DNA from: Asterionellopsis glacialis
Lineage: Eukaryota > Bacillariophyta > Plagiogrammaphyceae > Rhaphoneidales > Asterionellopsidaceae
NCBI GenBank assembly: GCA_014885115.2
Contig: WKLE02000993.1
Span: 1-43,696 of the forward strand
Length of the DNA: 43,696 nt
Reading direction: 5' to 3'
Positions 20,930-23,241 of this stretch are shown one piece after another. Under the pieces are notes generated by a model. It was not told the DNA's origin. It did not search any database and saw only the letters and a program-made list of their open reading frames with translations. The translations under genes and the position numbers were made by a program. Position 1 is the first letter of the stretch, and each line of letters opens with the position of its first letter.

Positions 20930-21723
20930 ATGATGAAATCCTTTACTGCAGCTGCTGCTGCAATGCTGTTGATGGCATCATCAACTGTAGCAGAACCAGC
21001 AAGTCTTAGCCTTGAAAACTACCAAAGTGAAATGACTGGCAAAAACAGTTTTGTCAAGGTAAGTTTTGAAAGTTGATAGTATTTGAAACAGAACTGAATG
21101 TTGAAATTTCAGATCGAGCTTCGCTTTGGCAAACAAGTTTGAATGCCGTATTTTTGGGAAACGACACACATCGTTGCATACTCCAATGCATTAACTCACT
21201 CTCAAACTGTTATCCTTTTGGAAACAAAAATATTCAAACTGCATAGTTCCTTGCACCTTGGTGAGGTCACTGTAAATCCATGAAGCCGGCATGGGATCAA
21301 TTGGCTGATGAATTCGCAGGTTCATCATCCGTTCTAATTGCAGATGTTGATTGTACGGCCGAGGGTGATAAGTTGTGTGAACAATTTGGAATTCGTGGAT
21401 ATCCTACTATCAAATACTTTGTAGATGGTGACATGAGTGAAGGAAAGGATTATCAGGGAGGACGTGATTTTGATTCTCTCAAAGGATTTGTAGCAGAAGA
21501 ATTGGAAGTCAAATGTTTCATTACAGATCCTACCACTGGATGTACGGAGAAGCAACAAGGGTACATTACCAAAATGACTGCCAAGTCTGCGGAAGATCGT
21601 GCCAAACAGTTGAAACGACTTGATGGTATGAAGGGTGATGCCATGAAAAGTGACCTAAAGGCTTGGTTGATGCAACGAATTGCTATTTTGAAACAATTTG
21701 AAGATGCCAAGGAAGAATTGTAA
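20930..21723 (+). CDS. PDI-like selenoprotein (thioredoxin domain, UGHC active site)
   Basis: Exon 1 (20930-21058) and exon 2 (21247-21723) join in phase 0 to give 201 residues if TGA at 21262-21264 is read as selenocysteine. Residues 1-22 are a signal peptide (MMKSFTAAAAAMLLMASSTVA). The joined frame then reads FVKFLAPWUGHCKSMKPAW, exactly a PDI-type thioredoxin active site with Sec49 in place of the first Cys and Cys52 in place. Downstream are the expected DVDCTAEGDKLCEQFGIRGYPTIKYF, including the cis-Pro (YPT), and FVAEEL. A helical C-terminal region ends in KEEL, the ER-retrieval variant used by animal PDIA4 (ERp72). The role is inferred to be thiol-disulfide exchange in the ER lumen. PDI-type selenoproteins are known in algae such as Emiliania huxleyi. 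A SECIS-like hairpin lies about 145 bp after the stop. A plain nonsense mutation is the alternative, but the rest of the frame is intact. Confidence 0.85.
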
Positions 21724-22122
21724 AGAAAGATAAACAGTGGATCTTTCAGTCTGGAGAAGAACGTGTTTTGACATTTGGACATTTTTTTTCGATTTGGGAA
21801 GGATTGTAGAAACGGATAGAAAGAGTGACAAATTTTGATTTTGACCAAACTGCGAATCGAGTCAAATGTGGAACGAATGACGCTCTTGCAGGACAATTAC
21901 AAATTTATATCTATAATGTGATTGTTGCAAGGGTTGAAAGATTTCACACAATTTTTGTTCCATGCTTGCTTCCTTTCAACAAGATACCTCAAAAGAGGAA
22001 AGAGTAACGATAAAGATAAACACTCGCTTCTTCTAGGTAGTGATAAAAAATAAATTGACTCTATTGAGACGTAACTATTGTAGGGACGAAACCTCGTTTT
22101 TCTTAGTTGACATGCTTAGGGT
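21724..22122. other. 3' UTR region between convergent selenoprotein and TAM41 genes
   Basis: About 400 bp lie between two convergent stop codons. It contains the SECIS-like hairpin at 21867-21948 and AT-rich flanks. No gene is seen. Confidence 0.5.
21867..21948 (+). promoter_or_regulatory. SECIS-like element in the 3' UTR of the PDI-like selenoprotein
   Basis: An 82-nt fold reads as follows. Lower helix TGTGGAA (21867-21873) pairs with TTTCACA (21942-21948). An internal loop is CGA / AGA. The SECIS core tetrads ATGA (21877-21880) and TGAA (21935-21938) face each other. Helix CTCTTGCA (21883-21890) pairs with TGCAAGGG (21926-21933). A GG bulge (21891-21892) follows. The upper helix ACAATTACA (21893-21901) pairs fully with TGTGATTGT (21917-21925), and a 15-nt apical loop begins AA. 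The AUGA/UGA core and loop AA are the diagnostic parts of eukaryotic SECIS elements. The loop AA is about 21 nt from the core, longer than the usual 10-13, so the GG bulge may be the functional counterpart of the AA motif. Confidence 0.65.
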
Positions 22123-23241
22123 TTATTTTACAATTTTTCGAAATGCACCTTTGGCAAACTTGGCACCAGCATAGCGTATACTTTTCATTACACCTGCTGT
22201 AAAGATGCCTTTTAAACTTTGACTTCTTGCAGCTGGTGCAACAATGTCTGCTAATGATTTGGCTAATTCCATGTTTGAATATCCAAATGAAGAATTCGTC
22301 TGCTCCTGCTGATGCTGTAATCGTTTTGTTAAACATTGCTCCCATAGTGCTTGACGCGCCGTTTGACAAGATGAATCCCATTCAACTGATACTGGCCTTT
22401 GCTCATGGCTGCTGTTTGTTGTTGCTGATGTCGAATAATTGACATTAATTAACCCCTTCTTTTCTAGTTTTTCTAATGGATTTTTGTATAAATCATGAAA
22501 TCGTTCTAATTGACCAGGTGAATGGACTAACTTTCGTACCTTTTCTGGGTCTTCCCCGCCGACTTGCATCCGTATATCACCTGCATAACTCAAATTTGCA
22601 ATTTTCATATACAATTCTTCCAATGGAATTGAATTTGGGCTATTAGTATTGTCATTATTATAATCCTGTAATAACAGCGATGCCGCTAATGCTGATGGTA
22701 AATTATATTCTTGTTGAGATTCCATCACCTCCTCATCTTCCAACACAGTTACAGTAGGTTTATGTAATCGTCCAGCTAGATATAAATAGTTCCAATCTCG
22801 TAAATCTTCAATAATGTCATTTTTTTGTACAACTCCATATTTTAGTAATCGTTCTTGTCCTTCTACAGGGATAAAGGCATGAAAGAACACTTTTGCCCCA
22901 TAATTTCGTTGTAAATTAGAACAAAAGGATGAACCCATCGTATGGCATAACCATGCATAATGATTTGAATTTAATTTTAAATTTTCATCATGCCAATCTT
23001 TTGCATCATCCACCACAAAAATTAAATCTACCATTGGTAAATCCATTTTGTTTTGCTTGCTCGTCTTTTCTTCGGATGGAATTCCTGAGTCTCTTTCTGG
23101 TTGTTGTTTGTGTTGCTGAGCAAACACTCCTGAACCATATCCAAAAGAATGAACAATCCCATCAGGAAATGAATCTACAATATCGCGTAATTGTGATGTA
23201 TGAGCTAATTGCCCTTGTTGTTCCGTCTCCATGTTTACCAT
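22123..23241 (-). CDS. TAM41: Phosphatidate cytidylyltransferase, mitochondrial (TAM41/Mmp37 family)
   Basis: A single-exon protein of 372 residues from the first ATG. Family marks in order are: GIVHSFGYGSGVF (about 28-40, the nucleotidyltransferase GxGSG loop); VDLIFVVDDAKDWHDENL (about 72-89, with the acidic DLxxxVDD metal-binding motif); NHYAW (about 93-97); YGAKVFFHAF; KYGVVQKNDIIEDLRDWNYLYLAGRL; SYAGDIRMQVGGEDPEKV; and a C-terminal TAARSQSLKG-like segment (here APAARSQSLKGI). TAM41 makes CDP-diacylglycerol from phosphatidic acid and CTP on the matrix side of the inner mitochondrial membrane, the first step to cardiolipin. A Gln/His/Lys insert splits the region just after the GSG loop. 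No clear presequence is seen at the chosen start. It is convergent with the selenoprotein gene. Confidence 0.93.
   Translation of the reverse strand: MVNMETEQQGQLAHTSQLRDIVDSFPDGIVHSFGYGSGVFAQQHKQQPERDSGIPSEEKTSKQNKMDLPMVDLIFVVDDAKDWHDENLKLNSNHYAWLCHTMGSSFCSNLQRNYGAKVFFHAFIPVEGQERLLKYGVVQKNDIIEDLRDWNYLYLAGRLHKPTVTVLEDEEVMESQQEYNLPSALAASLLLQDYNNDNTNSPNSIPLEELYMKIANLSYAGDIRMQVGGEDPEKVRKLVHSPGQLERFHDLYKNPLEKLEKKGLINVNYSTSATTNSSHEQRPVSVEWDSSCQTARQALWEQCLTKRLQHQQEQTNSSFGYSNMELAKSLADIVAPAARSQSLKGIFTAGVMKSIRYAGAKFAKGAFRKIVK

Follow-up and report, generated by a model that had tools for sequence, protein, structure and literature searches.

The gene described here, which lies in a 43,696-nucleotide stretch of Asterionellopsis glacialis DNA (hereafter the window), is very likely a real selenoprotein gene, encoding a small enzyme of the protein disulfide isomerase (PDI) type with selenocysteine (Sec) at its active site, where an in-frame TGA would be read as Sec. 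As a whole, the data are best explained, and we hold this with high confidence, by a protein of the EhSEP2 or algal selenoprotein-PDI kind, with UGA 21262-21264 probably decoded as Sec in an ER thiol oxidoreductase. Sec decoding in an enzyme of this type had been proposed in a preliminary description of this DNA, and it is supported by the genes for tRNA-Sec, SepSecS and eEFSec, which occur together in the same genome, by the conservation of the protein and by a SECIS-like fold past the stop codon, the last of which was not among the earlier observations.

The features of the gene are collected in Table 1. Exon 1 comprises 43 codons, its translation ends in NSFVK, and its N-terminus resembles a signal peptide when judged by eye. 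The intron has its donor GT at 21059-21060 and its acceptor AG ends at 21246, after which exon 2 opens with TTC CTT GCA CCT TGG TGA GGT CAC TGT (FLAPWUGHC, where U stands for the TGA). The splice is backed by the homologue P0002 (203 amino acids), which shares 85% identity over 99% of the joined query and is continuous at the junction. The joined exons encode one thioredoxin domain (Pfam PF00085, 73.3 bits) with WUGHC, a cis-Pro, a helical tail and a KEEL end. The only TGA in the gene falls on the first Cys of the CxxC, with conserved flanks on both sides, and the second Cys and the cis-Pro are kept. It is followed by 152 sense codons and the TAA at 21721-21723. The exon join proposed previously (FVKFLAPWUGHC, with the TGA on the first CxxC position) thus agrees with the sequence, the Pfam match and P0002, and the second Cys, cis-Pro and KEEL, said there to be intact, are seen in the translation. 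The frame is open to the TAA as had been stated, but the 153 codons given for it include the stop. The first Cys of a CxxC is the nucleophile in established thioredoxin and PDI chemistry, and the earlier assignment of Sec to the "resolving" position has to be corrected.

Two other genes of the window can be mentioned here. A convergent Tam41/Mmp37 phosphatidate cytidylyltransferase gene (22123-23241, - strand) has its end some 400 bases away from the stop codon of the PDI gene, and a mevalonate decarboxylase is 78-80% identical to proteins of Haslea ostrearia and Seminavis robusta.

Table 1 Coordinates, within the window, of the PDI-type gene and its 3' region.
Feature	Position	Strand	Description and basis
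Exon 1	20930-21058	+	ATG start, N-terminus like a signal peptide, beginning of thioredoxin domain; translation and contiguous coverage by P0002
Intron	21059-21246	+	188 bases, GT..AG ends; sequence, homologue P0002 unbroken across it
Exon 2	21247-21723	+	Active site (WUGHC), remainder of the thioredoxin domain, C-terminal helical domain, KEEL end, TAA stop
In-frame TGA	21262-21264	+	Nucleophilic position of UxxC; putative selenocysteine codon
3' stretch up to convergent Tam41/Mmp37 gene	21724-22122	+	Sequence, Pfam; presumed 3' region, bounded by the next gene
SECIS-like stem-loop	21867-21948	+	Lower helix 21867-21873/21942-21948, ATGA 21877-21880, 9-bp helix II from 21882, GG 21891-21892, helix III from 21893, GA 21936-21937

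A search with the joined protein returned 3769 homologues at E <= 0.001, and the best 120 of these were listed and classed by the residue at the Sec position (the query, P0001, was left out of the counts and P0003, the window's own short call, was kept among the cut-off entries). Among the best 120, 75 start after the Sec position, 12 have W, 1 has G and 32 have Cys at it. All 75 cut-off entries start at the same Met of S-M-KPAW, the sixth codon after the TGA, which is probably what gene callers give if the codon is taken as a stop. An intron cannot explain the cut in 11 of them (counted by hand), because these come from transcriptome sources. Gene callers that apply codes 4 and 25 translate TGA as W and G. 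The cut-off, W and G rows, i.e. all but the Cys rows, would therefore fit TGA in the relatives as well, which we infer from their protein entries. Such DNA was sought in viral contigs, where none was found, and two bacterial matches at 39% from the search of genome contigs were not used for this purpose. Thus 75 of the best 120 entries of the family begin just past the Sec codon and hence lack the active site, the TGA having probably been taken for a stop.

Past the codon, C36, the cis-Pro P53, C90 and C99 are kept in all of the best 120 homologues and C44 in 119 of them. In a tree built from this part, the window protein falls in a group of 31 rows (support 97/75) which belongs wholly to the inferred TGA class. 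On the tree of the best 120, which rests on few columns and has many open forks, the fewest changes between the TGA class and Cys number 12, with 5 forced by well-supported branches; if every W, G and cut-off entry does have TGA, Sec and Cys would seem to have replaced each other repeatedly in the family. The gene's own genome yielded no close Cys copy of it, its 12 other matches there having 33-43% identity. One of these is a nearly full-length Cys paralogue (G000:C357:41690-42127, - strand), in which the centre reads CTKC and the tail has a comparable pair of Cys.

The machinery was sought in the 40.3-Mb assembly (1503 contigs), with family searches run exon by exon. The genome contains a tRNA-Sec (76.5 bits; SeC(tca) in ARAGORN, anticodon TCA), one clean SepSecS match (367.5 bits) and an eEFSec locus with the GTPase, third and fourth domains (PF21208, PF21131), which matches the solved eEFSec 5izk (E 1.5e-63). 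A further locus was rejected as a second tRNA-Sec, as ARAGORN calls it tRNA-Ser. Of the components that the preliminary description had named, tRNA-Sec, SepSecS and eEFSec are therefore present, and SBP2 was not identified among the five L7Ae-domain matches in the 1503 contigs, one of which was scanned further and was not accepted because its matches are to the models for L7Ae and RNase P Pop3. The same exon-by-exon search gave no selenophosphate synthetase (TIGR00476 and PF00586, 0 matches each). The sole PF02769 (AIRS_C) match in the 1503 contigs sits inside a 4018-aa frame, and that locus is not supported as SPS2. Purine-synthesis enzymes are expected to match the AIRS families too, and the scarcity of AIRS and AIRS_C matches in this genome may reflect gaps, introns or limited search sensitivity.

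In-frame TGA codons were also found in five other genes of this genome. These are: (i, ii) two glutathione peroxidases (GPx; L020 and L022), (iii) SelT (L025), with CVSU, (iv) SelM (L026) and (v) a PDI paralogue (L008) with three in-frame TGA codons in GGA TGA GGA TGA TGA, i.e. GUGUU. The GUGUU paralogue (G000:C725; 1303-1317, 2103 and 2416) ends in EQEL and has two SECIS-like elements past its stop; it resembles the PDI_e family already in print, and a pair of such elements serving three Sec residues would be of interest. Two repeated SECIS-like elements, the second with a weaker helix, also lie past the stop of SelT (G000:C1197; 2089 and 2324).

Downstream of the window gene (21724-22123), the descriptor is matched by a single ATGA stem-loop, in which helices II and III are 9 bp each and the unpaired GG comes at 10 nt; its predicted energy is -19.1 kcal/mol. 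The element, with its ATGA at 21877, begins 153 nt past the stop codon, compared with 56-129 nt for the nearest element of each sister gene. When any NTGA is allowed, one further, weaker site appears at 21918 (-10.7 kcal/mol). An equally stable ATGA site arises in 3 of 4000 dinucleotide shuffles, and one with any NTGA in 11; folded with its flanks (21855-21965), the element has a z of -3.33 against shuffles, 1 of 200 being as low. As in a SECIS, a stable hairpin lies past the stop and its helix II rises from the NTGA and GA, though in the longer-flank fold (21855-21965) the GA and the first base of ATGA are paired elsewhere. Shorter flanks give a 7-bp lower helix below an open quartet, and the lower helix is thus not settled, owing to the pairing in the longer fold. 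The predicted folds agree on helix II, the GG bulge and helix III.

A published SECIS filter consists of NTGA, 10-13 nt, AA or CC, 15-39 nt and GA (PMC2375036). In the window element GG replaces the unpaired AA or CC (at 10 nt) and the GA is 43 nt away; for these reasons we call it SECIS-like and non-canonical. Long mini-stems have been reported for Ostreococcus and Chlamydomonas (PMC2375036). Rfam did not report a SECIS for the window gene or its locus, nor for the loci of both glutathione peroxidases, SelT and SelM, and the null result for the window gene is uninformative, given that these four sister selenoprotein loci are also without a match. A MAFFT alignment of the sister elements did not line up the helices. 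The sister-gene candidates, which are predictions too, share ATGACG (ATGAAA in one glutathione peroxidase, GPx2) and TGA[AT]. The signature ATGACG..TGA[AT] plus helix occurs at 1 site in the window (both strands, 87,392 bases), at none in 183,206 bases of 29 other loci of the genome (both strands, some loci overlapping) and at 1-2 coding-strand sites in 5 of 6 selenoprotein loci, i.e. that of the window gene and 4 of its 5 sisters (GPx2 lacks it). It was drawn up after the elements, including that of the window, had been seen, and these counts of its specificity are consequently partly circular.

The best sister candidates also vary at the apex: AT in one glutathione peroxidase and TG in the other, AT and GA in the GUGUU PDI, AA in SelM and AA at 10 nt in SelT (the last by eye). 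The glutathione peroxidase and GUGUU PDI candidates, with an apex other than AA or CC, point the same way as the window element, towards a relaxed rule. That Sec insertion is driven here by a SECIS whose apical AA/CC has turned into GG, on a long mini-stem, is a tentative proposal, to which we give somewhat less than even chances. If it is true, the apical AA/CC rule by which SECIS elements are found in eukaryotes is too strict for diatoms, and the window element offers a testable departure from that rule. A limited search of the literature, covering parts of the sources, met no description of an apical GG in such an element, from which absence from print is not claimed.

Several other explanations of the TGA have to be weighed. 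Genome-wide reassignment was rejected, as TGA is also an ordinary stop in the window, ending 3 of the 10 ORFs checked. We regard it as highly improbable that the gene is an ordinary PDI of the Cys type in which the codon really is a stop or arose by sequencing error, so that we would be dealing with a pseudogene or with a misread TGC or TGT. The Cys at this position in 32 of the best 120 homologues would suit that explanation, as would the fact that there is one assembly only of the genome, but constraint on the protein is evident both before and after the codon (compare the 85% identity of P0002 over 99% of the query), and the decay around it in relatives that the preliminary description had named as grounds for doubt is not seen. 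The 31-row group with its uniform class, the common starting point of 75 of the best 120 entries past the codon and the SECIS-like fold downstream also argue against a stop or an error. Even less credible is translation of the mRNA from the downstream Met (MKPAW) to give a thioredoxin fragment without the active-site strand. That Met is the start of the 75 cut-off entries among the best 120; yet such a product would lack the first strand, the UxxC and the signal peptide, while 47 of the 75 (best 120 of 3769) end in EL, which resembles an ER-retention signal and so requires a secretory signal as well, and the FVKFLAPW segment is conserved in full-length relatives.

A third explanation accepts the selenoprotein gene as real and places the working SECIS elsewhere in the transcript, not at the stem-loop at 21877. 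It is unlikely, though less so than the two just discussed. The GG and the long spacing of the 21877 element speak for it, as do two primary-sequence matches to the classic SECIS pattern (21841 and 21934) and the weaker stem-loop at 21918 as an alternative. Against this, neither 21841 nor 21934 is counted among the NTGA sites that form a helix in that stretch, and the 21877 element shares with the sister genes a signature, albeit a post hoc one, which is absent from the 29 other loci.

Returning to Sec decoding with the 21877 element, the ribosome would read UGA 21262-21264 as Sec with the help of tRNA-Sec, eEFSec and the stem-loop at about 21867-21948. The protein would enter the secretory pathway and be kept in the ER by its KEEL end. 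There it would exchange or reduce disulfides, with the Sec selenolate making the attack and the second Cys of UGHC acting as the resolving residue. Sec insertion, ER residence and redox role are all deduced here from sequence. The invariant CX8C pair of the tail might, at a guess, form a structural disulfide.

The C-terminal domain of the window protein, which carries this pair, is helical and ERp29-like, although no Pfam ERp29 match was obtained for the protein and ERp29/Windbeutel is a loose structural match with high rmsd. To our knowledge, ERp29 and Wind have no CxxC centre. The alignment used for the structure search comprised P0001 and 49 of the 120 homologues (28 of the 32 Cys rows, 21 of the 75 cut-off rows and no W or G rows), and the search says little on the C-terminal domain, because the matched rows mostly cover residues 1-89.

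The closest known counterparts are PDI selenoproteins of algae, whose existence in Emiliania huxleyi the preliminary description had rightly mentioned. According to the published description (PMC6254913), EhSEP2 (BAD98262.1), a PDI-like selenoprotein of that species, contains a single thioredoxin domain whose centre is UGHC. The window protein has the same single domain and UGHC, with Sec presumably at the same PDI active site; as far as descriptions allow the comparison, the two differ in that EhSEP2 comes from a haptophyte and the window protein from a diatom. PDI selenoproteins have also been reported from Thalassiosira pseudonana (two), likewise a diatom and likened here by description, and from Ostreococcus (three) (PMC2375036). 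The single-domain layout, earlier thought unusual, is therefore not so, given EhSEP2 and the two T. pseudonana proteins already in print. A thiol-disulfide isomerase of T. pseudonana, likened to the E. huxleyi selenoprotein, was reported to be 1.84-fold up under high light (PMC5139114). "The algal selenoproteomes" gives 20 to 44 selenoprotein genes in diatoms and the families PDI_a to PDI_e (PMC7539508). By its descriptions, the window protein resembles PDI_a to PDI_d, single-Sec PDI-like proteins of algae, and differs, with its single TGA, from PDI_e, which has GUGUU and three Sec residues. It is well supported that the window gene adds a diatom case to the PDI selenoproteins already known from algae.
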